DNA of 64,000 nt from the NCBI GenBank assembly GCA_016871755.1, contig VHCJ01000004.1, positions 1 to 64,000 of the forward strand, read 5' to 3'. The translations under genes and the position numbers were made by a program. Numbering within the stretch: position 1 is the first letter of the stretch; each line of letters starts with the position of its first letter. Shown in pieces: positions 51,499 through 56,036 of this stretch. The DNA is from Verrucomicrobiota bacterium (GTDB taxonomy: Bacteria; Verrucomicrobiota; Verrucomicrobiia; Opitutales; Opitutaceae). The notes beneath the pieces were generated by a model, which saw nothing but the letters and a program-made list of their open reading frames with translations, was not told the origin of the DNA and did no database searches.

Positions 51499-52425
51499 CT
51501 ATTCCGCCGACTCCGCCCGCCCGGCGCGCAGGGCGCGCGCCAACGCGGCCGGATCGCACGTGGTGCGCTGCGGGTCGAATCGGAGAATCCTTACCGTCCG
51601 CCCGAGGGGAGCCCATTGCCGCGGGTCGGTCGGGCCGAAGAGCGCGTGCACCGGTGTGCCGACGGCCGCCGCGAGGTGGGTGACGCCCGTGTCGTGGCCG
51701 GCGTAGGCCGACGCGCGGGCCAGCGCGGCGGCGAGAAGGGGCAGGTCCCACTGCTCGGCGATTTGGATCCGGGAGGAGGCAAGGGTCCGAAAACGCGCCG
51801 CGAGCGGGGTGTCCGCCTCGCCGAGTACGACGAGGAGGGGAACGGGATCAAGGCGGTCGATCAACTCGAGCCAGAGTTCCGGCGGCGCGTTCTTGGTCGG
51901 CGAGCCGCTGCCGGGATGAAGCGCGATGAACGGAGACGGGAGCGTGATCTGGTTCCGTGCGCGTTCGGTCGCTTCGGGGCCGGGATCGAGGGGCGTGAAG
52001 TCCGCAGGATCCTGACGATCCGCGGGCGCAATCGCGGCGACCGCATCCACCCACTGCCTCCACACGGGTCCGGCCCCCGGTGCTGGATCGATCCGCAGGG
52101 CCCGCTGTCCCGCACGTCGCGGGAAGTGCCGCATCACGGCCCCGTCCGCATCCGGCCAGCCGACGATGACAAGGTCGAAGTCCGTCACTATCGCCGCGAG
52201 CGGCTCCGGCAGCGGAGGGTCGCCGTAGAGCGCGGCCCACCGCGCCTCGTGCTGGGAATGGACCGAGTCGATGATCCCCGCGTCGACCGCGAGTTGCGCG
52301 GCGGCCGCGTTGCCGACGAGCTCGATCCGGGCGGTCGGGAACGCGGCGCGGAGCGTGCGCAGCAGAGGCAGCGTGAGCAGGAAATCACCCAGTGCGCCGC
52401 CGCGGAGGACGAGGACTGACCTCAT
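51499..52425 (-). CDS. Family 9 glycosyltransferase (heptosyltransferase-like)
   Basis: 308 residues from ATG 52425. The start VLVLRGGALGDFLLTLPLLRTL and the C-terminal GHDTGVTHLAAAVGTPVHALFGPTDP are the two signature blocks of GT9 enzymes (ADP-heptose:LPS heptosyltransferases). It would add a heptose or related sugar to the LPS inner core from the cytoplasmic face. Donor identity is not proven. Its ATG overlaps the DUF3108 stop by four bases, so the two are translated together. Confidence 0.85.
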   Translation of the reverse strand: MRSVLVLRGGALGDFLLTLPLLRTLRAAFPTARIELVGNAAAAQLAVDAGIIDSVHSQHEARWAALYGDPPLPEPLAAIVTDFDLVIVGWPDADGAVMRHFPRRAGQRALRIDPAPGAGPVWRQWVDAVAAIAPADRQDPADFTPLDPGPEATERARNQITLPSPFIALHPGSGSPTKNAPPELWLELIDRLDPVPLLVVLGEADTPLAARFRTLASSRIQIAEQWDLPLLAAALARASAYAGHDTGVTHLAAAVGTPVHALFGPTDPRQWAPLGRTVRILRFDPQRTTCDPAALARALRAGRAESAE

Positions 52426-53249
52426 TGACCCGGCCCCGGCGGCGAGGCGCTCGCCGGTCCGGAGGCGGCCGCGGTGGGCGGACGATGCTCGACGAGGGTG
52501 AGGAGCGCGGTGCCGAAGTTCAGCTTGAGCTGCATCTGCACGGGCAGGCGCGGTTCGCGCTCGGAGACCCAGACTTTGATCTCGCCTCCTTTGCGGAAGA
52601 CGCCGCGCGGCTCCTCGCTCTCCATGGACGGCACAAGACGCAGGGTCGGCACCGGACCTTTGGGTGTGCGCACCGTCTCCCGGCCGTCCGCCCGCAGGAC
52701 GATCGGATAGAGGTCGCGCCCGAAGTAGACCAACGCCTCCTGCCGGTCCCCGACGCCCGCCTGCCACTCGCGGGTCTGGATCAGCGCGGAGATCAGGTCG
52801 GTGGGGTCGCCCTTGGGCAGCGCGAACTCTCGGTTACGGTGCGGTCGCGCCTCATCGGTGTGGGTGGCCACGCCGCGTGCGTAGTCGAAGACGGTCACGC
52901 TGCCCTGCTTCTTGGAACCCGCCTGGCCACTTTCCGAAGCCCGGATGATTCGCCCGGTTGCCTCGTCGATCAGGAGTTCGCCCCAGTTGTCGAAGGTGTA
53001 GAGTCCGCGCACCAGTCCGCGGGATGAGATCTGAGTCGTGACGCGGACGATTCCCCGACGGTCGAGCGTGTCGCGATGGGCCTCGATGATGACCTCCCCG
53101 GCGTTTCCGAACACGCCCCAGCCGGTGCGGTAGCGGAAGCGCTCGCCGTCGCGCAGGGCGGTGAAGGGGGCGGCGTTTCCGGCAAGCGTGGCCATGAGGG
53201 CGAGGGAAACGGCCAGCAGCAGGCGGAGGGTGCGAGCGGAGCGTTCCAT
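52422..53249 (-). CDS. Secreted DUF3108-domain protein
   Basis: 275 residues with a signal peptide (LLLAVSLALMATLAGNAA). The pattern DGERFRYRTGWGVFGNAGEVIIEAHR at the start, TDLISALIQTREW in the middle and EIKVWVSEREPRLPVQMQLKLNFGTALLTL at the end fits DUF3108, a periplasmic beta-rich domain of unknown function. The gene starts one base after the upstream ligase stop and overlaps the glycosyltransferase by four bases. The clustering suggests a link to envelope assembly, but that is only positional. Confidence 0.8.
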   Translation of the reverse strand: MERSARTLRLLLAVSLALMATLAGNAAPFTALRDGERFRYRTGWGVFGNAGEVIIEAHRDTLDRRGIVRVTTQISSRGLVRGLYTFDNWGELLIDEATGRIIRASESGQAGSKKQGSVTVFDYARGVATHTDEARPHRNREFALPKGDPTDLISALIQTREWQAGVGDRQEALVYFGRDLYPIVLRADGRETVRTPKGPVPTLRLVPSMESEEPRGVFRKGGEIKVWVSEREPRLPVQMQLKLNFGTALLTLVEHRPPTAAASGPASASPPGPGQ

Positions 53250-56036
53250 TCAGTCGGAAGTCTGGCTCGATCCGCCTCCGGCGTCCAGCCCGGGAAGGAG
53301 ATCCGCCGGGCGGTTCCAGTCGACCGCCGCCGCCGCGAGCGTCCGGCAGGTCGACAGGCGGTCGATGTCCGCCACCGTCTTGTCGTCCCGGATGCGCACG
53401 ATCCGCGGAAAGCGCAGGGCGAAGCCGCTGTCGTGCCGCGGGCTCGGCTGGATCGCGTCAAAGGCCACCTCGAGGACGAGATCCGGGACCACGGTGCGCC
53501 GGCGGCCCTGCACCTCCAGGGTCCGGTCCAGAAAGTGGTCCGTCAGGCGGGCAATCTCAGCGTCGGTAAGGCCGGAGTAAGCCTTACCGACCGTGAGGAG
53601 GCGATCGCTGTCGTCGTCCCGGACCGCGAACGTGTAGTCGCTGAGGACGGCCTTCCGTTTGCCGTGGCCGGTCTCGACCGCCACGACGACGACATCGAGG
53701 GTGGCGGCGGCCTTCTTCAGCTTGAGCCACGCGAGGCCGCGGCGGCCCGGAGTGTAGGGGCTCGTGGGATTCTTGGCCATGAGTCCCTCGTTGCCGCGAC
53801 GCCGCGCGGCGGCGAAGGCGAGTTCGATCTCCTCCGCCGAGTGCGCGCGGCGGACCGGGGCGAGCTGCAGCGCCGGGATCGACCTGCGGTCCGCGCGTTC
53901 CGCGAGCAGGGCTTCGAGTCGGGCGCGCCGCTCGGCGAGGGAGAGGCGGAGCAGCGACTCGTCCCCGACGCGGAGGAGGTCGTAGCAGGAGAGGCTGACC
54001 GGGATCTCCGCGCCGAGGAACAGGTCGTCGCCCTTCCGGCCGAGGCGCCGCTGCAGTTCCGCGAAGGGCAGGGCGCGACCGTCGCGCCAGGCGAGGAGTT
54101 CGCCGTCGATGATCGCGGTGGTGCCGAGCTCGCGGGCGGCGGCGACCAATTCGGGAAATTGATCCGAGATGCGCCGCAGGTCGCGGGAAAAGAGCTCGGC
54201 CCGACCCGGCGCGGTGTGCAGCTGGCAGCGGATGCCATCGTACTTCTCCTCGATCCAGACCGGCGTGCCGAGCCGCGTGATGATCGCGCCTGCATCCGGT
54301 TCCGGGCTGGCCAGCATGAATCCGATCGGCTGATACAGCGCGGCCTCGAGGGTGCCAAGGGTGCCGGCGCGAGTCGCCGCCAGTACCTCGCCGAGGTCGC
54401 CATTGATCATGACCGCATCCCTGACAGCCTCGATCGGGACCGCGGTTGAGGCGGCGATCGCCTCCTCGACCAATCCCTCCCGGAGGCCAATCCGCAGGTC
54501 GCCGGTGAGGATCTTGATCACGTACTTGGTCTGGTCCGGCGACAGCGCGCGGAAACAACTCTCCAAGAGCGCCAGCTTGGCGGCTGGACCCGCGGAGCGG
54601 GCGAGGCGATCGAAGAGCTCACCCACGTCACGCAGGCCGAGGGGCCGCGGCTCGACTCTCCCGCCGAGGAGGGCCTCGGCCGTCTCCCCGCTGTCGCCGA
54701 ACCGCAGGTAGGCCCGGCGAAAGTCGTCCGGGGTGGCGCCGGCCACCTCCAGCACGGCGCGGCGGATCAGCGACCAGCCGACCTGCAGGGTGCGTTCGTC
54801 GGCGCGCGCCAGCGGGCGGGCCGTGAAGTAGCGGGTGGCGAGCGCGGCCTCCGGGGTCGGCAGGGAGCGGAAATACTCGGCCAGCAGCGCGACCTTGTCG
54901 GTGCGTCCGGTGAGAGTCCGGAGGGCCTCGGCGGTCGCGGCAAAACGGCCGAAGTCGGTGGTATCCTCCTCGACCCGCCCGGCGGTCGGGGCGGCGGCCG
55001 GGCGTTCGGGGGCGGACGAAGGCGGTCGGGCAGTGGGGGACGGCGCGGGCTCGTGGAGCGCCATCTCCAGCTGGTTGTCTTCATTGATCGCCCACGCGTC
55101 GAAGCCCCGTTCGCGCAGGGTGCGCGCGAAGTCGGCGGCGAAGCCGTGCAGGGTGAGCACGCGGCGCGGCTGCACGCACTCAACCATGCGCAGCAGGTCC
55201 GGGAAATCGGCGTGGTCCGAGAGCGGGAACGCTGCATCGCAGCCGGAGCGGAAGCGGATCGACGGATCGAGCGCCCAGCCGGTGATCGTGGCCGTCCGGC
55301 GCCGCGGCAATCGACGGAGGAAGGCGGACTGCGGGGATTGCGGGGGGCATAGGACCACGTGCCCCGGGGCTTCCGCCTCGTCGAAGGTCCGGTACGCCGG
55401 GAACCGCACGCCGAGTTCCTCGTAGACCGCAGTCATGCGTGCCGTCTGCGGGTGCAGCATCACCGGGAGTCCGTCCTGCGTCAGGACGGAGAGCAGTTCC
55501 TGGCTCTTGCCGAGGCTGTAACCGAAGAGCACGGGCGTTTCGCCCTCCTGCAGGGCCTCGCGGCAGAAGCGCCGGATGTCGGCCAGCACGGTGGCGGTCG
55601 GGGGAAAGACGTACTGCGGGCGGCCATAGGTCGTCTCCATGATCAACAGGTCGGCCGCAGGCGTGGCACAGGGCTCCGCGGACAGTCCCGGACGCAGCTT
55701 GAAGTCGCCGGTGTAGAGGAGCCGGCCGTGCTCCGGATGGGCGATGAGGCATTGGGCCGACCCGAAGATGTGACCCGCCGGGTGCAGCGTGAGCGTGGCG
55801 CCCCGGTCGAGGGGGATGGTCTCGCCGAAGGACACCGTGCGGTAGGCGCGGGCGGCGGGCAGGCGGGCCTGCATCAGCCGGGCGGTGCCCTCGGAGCAGA
55901 GGACCTCTCCGTGCGCGGCGAGGTGGTCGAAGTGCGCGTGGGAGACGAAGGACCTCGGCGTCGGGAAGTGTGCATCCAGCCACCAGCCGATCTGCGGCAG
56001 CCAGAGTCCGTTGCGGTACTGCACATCCCAAGCCAT
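53250..56036 (-). CDS. Fusion of a metallo-beta-lactamase-fold exonuclease and an ATP-dependent DNA ligase
   Basis: 928 residues, one open frame. Residues 1-325 are an MBL/beta-CASP nuclease: HxHxDH at 33-38 (SHAHFDHL), SLGKSQELL near 174, and LSDHADFPD near 272, like the 'DNA ligase-associated exonuclease'. A Pro/Ala-rich linker (about 329-357) follows. Residues about 360-905 are an ATP-dependent DNA ligase with the nucleotidyl-transfer lysine Lys598 in EEKYDGIR, then DGELLAW, NEGLMAK and WLKLKK motifs. In some bacteria these proteins are separate genes in an operon with Lhr helicase and a phosphoesterase. Neither is in this window. The fusion would process and seal DNA ends. Confidence 0.88.
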   Translation of the reverse strand: MAWDVQYRNGLWLPQIGWWLDAHFPTPRSFVSHAHFDHLAAHGEVLCSEGTARLMQARLPAARAYRTVSFGETIPLDRGATLTLHPAGHIFGSAQCLIAHPEHGRLLYTGDFKLRPGLSAEPCATPAADLLIMETTYGRPQYVFPPTATVLADIRRFCREALQEGETPVLFGYSLGKSQELLSVLTQDGLPVMLHPQTARMTAVYEELGVRFPAYRTFDEAEAPGHVVLCPPQSPQSAFLRRLPRRRTATITGWALDPSIRFRSGCDAAFPLSDHADFPDLLRMVECVQPRRVLTLHGFAADFARTLRERGFDAWAINEDNQLEMALHEPAPSPTARPPSSAPERPAAAPTAGRVEEDTTDFGRFAATAEALRTLTGRTDKVALLAEYFRSLPTPEAALATRYFTARPLARADERTLQVGWSLIRRAVLEVAGATPDDFRRAYLRFGDSGETAEALLGGRVEPRPLGLRDVGELFDRLARSAGPAAKLALLESCFRALSPDQTKYVIKILTGDLRIGLREGLVEEAIAASTAVPIEAVRDAVMINGDLGEVLAATRAGTLGTLEAALYQPIGFMLASPEPDAGAIITRLGTPVWIEEKYDGIRCQLHTAPGRAELFSRDLRRISDQFPELVAAARELGTTAIIDGELLAWRDGRALPFAELQRRLGRKGDDLFLGAEIPVSLSCYDLLRVGDESLLRLSLAERRARLEALLAERADRRSIPALQLAPVRRAHSAEEIELAFAAARRRGNEGLMAKNPTSPYTPGRRGLAWLKLKKAAATLDVVVVAVETGHGKRKAVLSDYTFAVRDDDSDRLLTVGKAYSGLTDAEIARLTDHFLDRTLEVQGRRRTVVPDLVLEVAFDAIQPSPRHDSGFALRFPRIVRIRDDKTVADIDRLSTCRTLAAAAVDWNRPADLLPGLDAGGGSSQTSD

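Follow-up and report, generated by a model that had tools for sequence, protein, structure and literature searches.

The four-gene LigB-Exo-Lhr-MPE cluster of bacteria (TIGR04120 to TIGR04123) contains nuclease and ligase families related to those of the gene described here, and in the cited part of PMC10140301 the role of this LigB/Exo/Lhr/phosphodiesterase pathway is stated as not known. Nucleases and ligases joined in a single chain are also in print. The same source cites an earlier case from Opitutus terrae, OTER_RS15935 (Ejaz and Shuman 2018), which it places in the Lhr/phosphodiesterase configuration, and describes 13 metagenome proteins from the Dry Valley (Antarctic), none of them in the Lhr configuration. 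In a Dry Valley homolog the ligase module was active and the nuclease module was insoluble (PMC10140301). The plant DNA ligase 6 (AtLIG6) has a ligase catalytic domain and a beta-lactamase/beta-CASP domain in one protein (PMC3198793).

The window analysed here is a stretch of 64,000 nucleotides from a Verrucomicrobiota bacterium of the family Opitutaceae (assembly GCA_016871755.1, contig VHCJ01000004.1, positions 1 to 64,000), and it holds a gene of this fused type. A first-pass annotation, made from the sequence alone, took the two activities to be known as separate genes and to be carried here by one polypeptide. The fusion is already published for O. terrae and the Dry Valley metagenomes, as is the Lhr-less setting (PMC10140301). 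What is added here is the four states of the chromosomal slot, the co-occurrence of Lhr and ligase, the dead ligases, and a motif C of the CPSF73/RNase J type. No published account of the slot erosion or of a dead ligase was found in a full-text search of one open-licence collection, which leaves out Ejaz and Shuman 2018.

The window's gene has the same domain order as OTER_RS15935, with the nuclease first and a three-domain ATP-dependent ligase after it in one frame. It differs in its setting, as neither Lhr nor MPE lies next door and neither was found in the window's draft genome. The Dry Valley RMMBL-LigB fusions share the domain order and lie outside the Lhr cluster, but those loci show little mutual synteny, whereas the window's slot is conserved in its family; this likeness is drawn from their published description. 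Close relatives of the window's gene adjoin Lhr and MPE as in the LigB-Exo-Lhr-MPE cluster, while the window's own gene is fused and both its halves score below the cluster-family cut-offs. The AtLIG6 domain has been likened to Artemis, which has Val in motif C where the window's protein has His, and the comparison with AtLIG6 holds at the level of architecture only (PMC3198793, PMC7458816).

The explanation we consider quite probable is that of a two-activity repair enzyme which trims and seals. The fusion, the intact motifs, the predicted folds, the synteny and the presence pattern are observed; we infer both catalytic activities, the direction of gene loss, the substrate, the hand-over between the halves and the role in repair. 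An N-terminal beta-CASP nuclease would be tethered through a flexible linker to a complete DNA ligase. The nuclease would trim blocked, flapped or RNA-containing ends until a nick with 5'-phosphate and 3'-OH remains, the tethered ligase would seal this nick, and the NAD-dependent LigA would serve replication. A single fusion event within the window's class would have given rise to the gene, and its nuclease and ligase would belong to a lineage separate from the LigB-Exo pair usual in the Lhr cluster. An Lhr helicase and a metallophosphoesterase (MPE) would once have stood between the fusion gene and DUF3108 in the ancestry of the window, and both would then have been lost in place.

Gene and domain structure

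The features of the locus are listed in Table 1. The single 928-residue frame with a nuclease and a ligase, as first annotated, is borne out: it starts with ATG, has no internal stops and is matched by both domain profiles (in Pfam, RMMBL and the ligase A_N, A_M and A_C domains). The three-domain ATP-dependent ligase spans residues 362-900. In the sequence TGAATG the stop codon of the fusion directly abuts the start codon of DUF3108.

Table 1. Features of the fused gene and its two flanks (positions in the window)
Feature	Position	Strand	Evidence
Fused nuclease-ligase gene P0001, 928 aa	53250..56036	-	frame and profile matches
Beta-CASP metallo-beta-lactamase nuclease domain, residues 1-320	55077..56036	-	TIGR04122 8-318, RMMBL, model pLDDT 92.9, archaeal CPSF/CPSF73 matches
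Disordered Pro/Ala-rich linker, residues 321-356	54969..55076	-	pLDDT < 50; 23-56 aa in 49 fused rows
Ligase DNA-binding domain PF04675, residues 362-528	54453..54953	-	Pfam
Ligase nucleotidyltransferase domain PF01068, residues 574-774	53715..54317	-	Pfam
Catalytic Lys598 codon, EEKYDG motif	54243..54245	-	alignment
Ligase OB domain PF04679, residues 795-886	53379..53654	-	Pfam
DUF3108 gene, conserved slot flank in the window's family	52422..53249	-	Pfam, relatives' loci
uppP (BacA, PF02673), other flank; start codon not fixed; same flank in L088-L091	56083..56943	-	Pfam

The match to the ATP-dependent DNA ligase superfamily (TIGR00574) is 234.5 bits, above the curated cut-off of 217.8, with the catalytic K598 present. 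The narrower families all score below their curated cut-offs: 213.1 bits on residues 8-318 for the equivalog TIGR04122 (ligase-associated exonuclease; cut-off 325), 353 bits on residues 364-900 for the equivalog TIGR04120 (cisplatin damage response ligase; cut-off 400), and 373.8 bits on the ligase half to about residue 902 for NF006701 (bacterial ATP ligase; cut-off 543).

The whole-protein model has a mean pLDDT of 84.6, with long stretches below 50 at residues 321-356 and 905-928. Its pTM is 0.54, and the relative placing of the two halves is not predicted. The first of these stretches is the Pro/Ala linker, which is present but begins and ends a little earlier than the residues 325-365 first assigned to it. 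It gives no sign of a missed stop or frameshift: all 49 fused rows, among them the window and three with a decayed ligase, are in frame here, and the nearest homolog (L088) is 79% identical over residues 1-921. In L093, L168 and L169 the ligase profile match splits near position 226, which suggests an insert between the DNA-binding and nucleotidyltransferase parts of these sequences.

The window's genome (G000) is a draft, 97.4% complete, in 144 contigs. It encodes the NAD-dependent LigA (698.6 bits), and a profile search of the genome gave no second PF01068 ligase.

Active site and type of the nuclease

The HxHxDH motif occupies residues 33-38 (H33, H35, D37 and H38), and Lys598 of the KYDG sequence lies within EEKYDG at residues 596-601, both in agreement with the first-pass annotation. 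The acid of motif A is E134, and motifs B and C are provided by H275 and H297. The motif alignment consists of 71 fused-protein frames, duplicate loci included. HxHxDH, GH, the Asp of Y(T/A)GD, SDH and the ligase Lys are kept wherever a row covers them, except in three decayed cases; the other rows without a motif (L095, L096, L099, L100 and L167) are contig-end or frame-break cases.

His297 is invariant in all 21 aligned nucleases, including the Alphaproteobacterial ones, and lines up with motif C of CPSF73. The window's protein has the complete motif set of CPSF73, archaeal CPSF and RNase J (HxHxDH, A acid, B His and C His). It lacks the motif C Val of the SNM1-family DNA nucleases, Artemis among them (PMC7458816, cited part). 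The model of the nuclease half has a pLDDT of 92.9, and its top structural neighbours, at Z 25-32.5, are archaeal CPSF (Z 31-32.5), CPSF73, Ysh1, TTHA0252, Integrator 11, Cas14 (type VII CRISPR) and RNase J. No SNM1 entry stands among the best 50 structural matches listed, which is not counted against kinship.

Because of the CPSF73-type His in motif C and the neighbours of CPSF and RNase J type, RNA is a serious candidate substrate of the nuclease half. Lhr helicases can unwind RNA:DNA hybrids (PMC8301817, cited part), which fits an RNA-acting nuclease. The nuclease half could then be an RNase, or process RNA within DNA (R-loops, RNA ends) before the ligase seals, instead of being a DNA exonuclease. 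However, a Val to His swap in SNM1A altered neither activity nor selectivity, according to the cited part of PMC7458816. In addition, SNM1A and Apollo are structurally close in Foldseek (query TM 0.64-0.69, as compared with ~0.67-0.77 for the CPSF group). SNM1A is also the best match in a single-sequence search; a profile search places archaeal CPSF and CPSF73 first and SNM1A next. The NCBI name of the family is DNA damage response exonuclease, and "exonuclease" is for this half a putative, annotation-based term. The RNA alternative is a tentative one in our judgement, and the RNA-type motif C points to the substrate class to examine first.

Distribution of the fusion

The first-pass annotation had proposed a genome search for the same domain pair. 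In a draw of 387 genomes from the phylum, 80 have a match at E <= 1e-60, and 32 of these carry an intact fusion, all within the window's class (11 from the window's own family, 21 from others). Both domains were checked in one frame for each intact fusion; the gene of G102 spans two contigs. Outside the class six genomes match, by the ligase half only, and the loci examined in three of these (G196, G218 and G308) hold no fusion. In a draw from the order, 128 of 177 genomes match at E <= 1e-3, and among the matches listed the intact fusions are found in the window's family only. In genomes with names, 14 of 74 loci (L088-L100 and L154) combine the two domains, whole or in part, in a single frame, under the names Opitutaceae, Opitutus, Opitutia, Spartobacteria LR76, Chthoniobacter and Verrucomicrobia. 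The nuclease start of L095 and L099 sits in another frame, and L096 and L100 are truncated where their contigs end. The fusion alone is ordinary for this bacterial class. In G513, a genus mate of the window's genome, nothing matches the fusion at E <= 1e-60 and a PF01068 ligase is lacking, which counts against the trim-and-seal explanation; Lhr (threshold E <= 1e-60) and MPE (threshold E <= 1e-20) are likewise not found there.

The same one-frame fusion in 32 genomes, several of them of one contig, refutes the reading in which an assembly error or read-through links two distinct genes. Nothing was found in favour of this reading, although G124, G086 and G108 show how close separate pairs can look, and we give it practically no credence.

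Further fusions considered in G124, G094, G086 and G108 were rejected, as nuclease and ligase are separate adjacent genes there. In G124, G086 and G108 (loci L175, L177 and L178) the two genes are in the same frame with a single stop codon between them, one step short of fusion. The Acidobacteria locus L130 was rejected as well, being an adjacent pair.

Origin of the fusion

The ligase tree has 104 rows and comes from a quick search with SH-aLRT support only and with long-branch warnings. In it, 48 fused and 2 dead ligase halves form one clade with an SH-aLRT of 99, which does not include the cluster ligases usual in the same order. Of the 48 rows, 46 share a frame with a nuclease; the other two, L101 and L103, are pieces at contig ends that were counted as fused. 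A further piece, L102, probably makes up a single fused gene together with L101 from the same bin. The nuclease tree (125 rows; quick search, long-branch warnings) has the same deep split. Since the fused ligase halves form one clade, the simplest reading is one fusion event in the ancestor of the window's class. The closest unfused rows to the clade are archaeal. Since the window's own peptides were used to collect the loci, sampling leans toward the window, and for this reason the archaeal nearness is not taken as proof of transfer.

The gene is not simply a fusion of the pair found in the usual cluster, as both halves lie far from the same-order adjacent nuclease/ligase pairs in the trees and score below the cluster-family cut-offs.

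Gene order before DUF3108

Within the window's family the gene has its place ahead of DUF3108, a slot with four states: fusion-Lhr-MPE-DUF3108, fusion-DUF3108 (the window), dead-ligase fusion-DUF3108, and nuclease-DUF3108. The order fusion-Lhr-DUF3108 occurs in ten relatives (L089, L090, L091, L093, L094, L163, L164, L165, L168 and L169), with MPE seen between in L089, L091, L093, L163, L165 and L168; by TIGR04123, MPE is also beside Lhr in G013 and G135. Our own Lhr and MPE profiles were built from 5 and 9 seed frames, respectively, and the MPE profile scores weakly. In G114 the helicase adjoining the fusion combines DEAD, helicase C, WH_Lhr and DEAD_assoc domains. The fusion is followed by DUF3108 without Lhr between in the window, L088, L095, L162, L166 and L225, and the decayed fusion is followed by it in L247 and L248. 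Among 32 solo loci of the type seen in the window's family, 31 (all but L250) have DUF3108 next to the nuclease on the same strand within about 350 bases. This count leaves out contig-end and broken genes, such as L139 with its nuclease broken over two frames. L115 and L262 carry identical nucleases. DUF3108 was not detected at L224, a fused locus of the window's family, or near ten solo loci outside this family (L179, L180, L198-L201 and L254-L257).

The order uppP-fusion-Lhr-MPE-DUF3108 is found in L089 and L091, and L090 has the same order with MPE not detected by our own profile. The order in the window and L088 is uppP-fusion-DUF3108, and these two are nested within the Lhr-bearing group in both the nuclease and the ligase trees. 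Because L089-L091 share the uppP flank with the window and L088, the lineage of the window probably lost Lhr and MPE from their place between fusion and DUF3108. The first-pass description of a cluster of uppP, DUF3108 and a glycosyltransferase without Lhr or phosphoesterase is correct in its members: the three genes are present (the last as a family 9 match), and Lhr and phosphoesterase were not found in the draft genome. However, it is not a replacement cluster, since close relatives hold Lhr and MPE between the fusion and DUF3108.

Throughout the window's family DUF3108 is retained after the nuclease or the fusion, and this tie may be meaningful.

Lhr and MPE across genomes

Lhr and MPE are absent from the flanks of the fusion gene in the window. 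In the window's draft genome no Lhr match is better than 64.8 bits (cut-off 850), and there is no MPE match at E <= 1e-3. An adjacent Lhr cluster, which the first-pass annotation had named as evidence against itself, was thus not found there.

A search of 63 genomes of the class gave matches to TIGR04121 in 28 (E <= 1e-60) and to TIGR04123 in 25 (E <= 1e-20), with 14 over the curated cut-off in each case. In the state counts, Lhr means a TIGR04121 match at E <= 1e-60, a threshold at which the control was positive in 6 of 14 known genomes (one over the cut-off). Of the 32 intact-fusion genomes, 24 have an Lhr-type match, 12 of them over the cut-off, as against none of 24 solo genomes at either level; for MPE the values are 23 of 32 and 0 of 24. 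In the solo genome G415 a helicase match of 249 bits covers positions 11-434 of 804, and this genome was counted as having no Lhr. The PF01068 ligase is absent at E <= 1e-3 in all 24 solo genomes. To the question, raised at the first pass, of whether fused genomes still encode Lhr, the answer is that most do, often elsewhere in the genome. The Fisher value for Lhr versus ligase state, 4.8e-9, ignores kinship. The kinship-corrected test has too few usable pairs, 4, to carry any power, with 2.1 on average in the same direction and 0 in the opposite one, and a median p of 0.5. Two genomes, G360 and G433, have an Lhr-family match despite a decayed ligase.

In G480 and G433 the open frame that holds the Lhr-family match measures 1475-1481 aa and exceeds Lhr-Core in length.

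Probable loss and decay of the ligase half

Many relatives keep the nuclease with the ligase missing or decayed, so the coupling is not essential to the nuclease, which counts against the trim-and-seal explanation. This opens an alternative in which the nuclease is a conserved core working without the ligase, and the ligase an accessory that was shed, or kept in a non-catalytic form, in lineages without the Lhr-MPE pair. In 89 nuclease rows (44 fused, 42 solo and 3 decayed) at least 7 changes between fused and solo are required, and a single clade of solo rows is rejected (p-AU 1e-5). Adjacent pairs, L181, L096 (fused, cut by a contig end) and L102, L116 and L135 (solo, cut by a contig end) were left out of this count. 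No ligase remnant was found at E <= 0.01 in the 33 solo loci searched of the 42. These results, the DUF3108 retained next door in the solo loci and the distribution of Lhr and MPE all favour the alternative. However, parsimony counts cannot separate gain from loss, and the direction is taken from the ligase tree; the association with Lhr comes with a kinship-corrected test that lacks the power to back it and has its exceptions in G360 and G433; and the window's own ligase is intact. We see this alternative as falling a little short of an even chance. Returning to the trim-and-seal enzyme, its best reading is one in which the nuclease half would be the lasting core.

The decayed forms bear on the same choice. 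In L247:7320-9599 (G433) and L248:7577-9850 (G368) the nuclease is fused to a ligase without the catalytic lysine or the OB domain; the Lys is replaced by R or L, DGE by DGT, and the SRD motif is missing. This dead ligase, with a pN of 0.277 vs a pS of 0.733, is still constrained, as the nuclease-core alternative would have it. Between L247 and L248 the dN is 0.345 in the ligase part (dS near saturation) and 0.233 in the nuclease part, while five intact pairs have dN values of 0.26-0.51 and 0.24-0.51, respectively. Because the ligase/nuclease dN ratio is 1.48 in the dead pair vs 0.92-1.28 in the intact pairs, the constraint is partly relaxed, less tight than in intact ligases, which weakens that alternative.

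A wider reading would combine an RNA-type beta-CASP nuclease and a DNA ligase for RNA removal and sealing. Stepwise decay of the slot, first of Lhr and MPE, then of ligase catalysis and then of the ligase, would leave a nuclease with a job of its own, and one genus would keep the dead ligase as a nucleic-acid-binding arm. We consider this combination unlikely. One fixed slot with every stage from the full set to the nuclease alone, together with a naturally dead ligase, is a natural experiment on the interdependence of the parts. The most reduced fusion, L249:7151-9007 (G360), which also favours the nuclease as core, has the nuclease fused to the ligase DNA-binding domain only.
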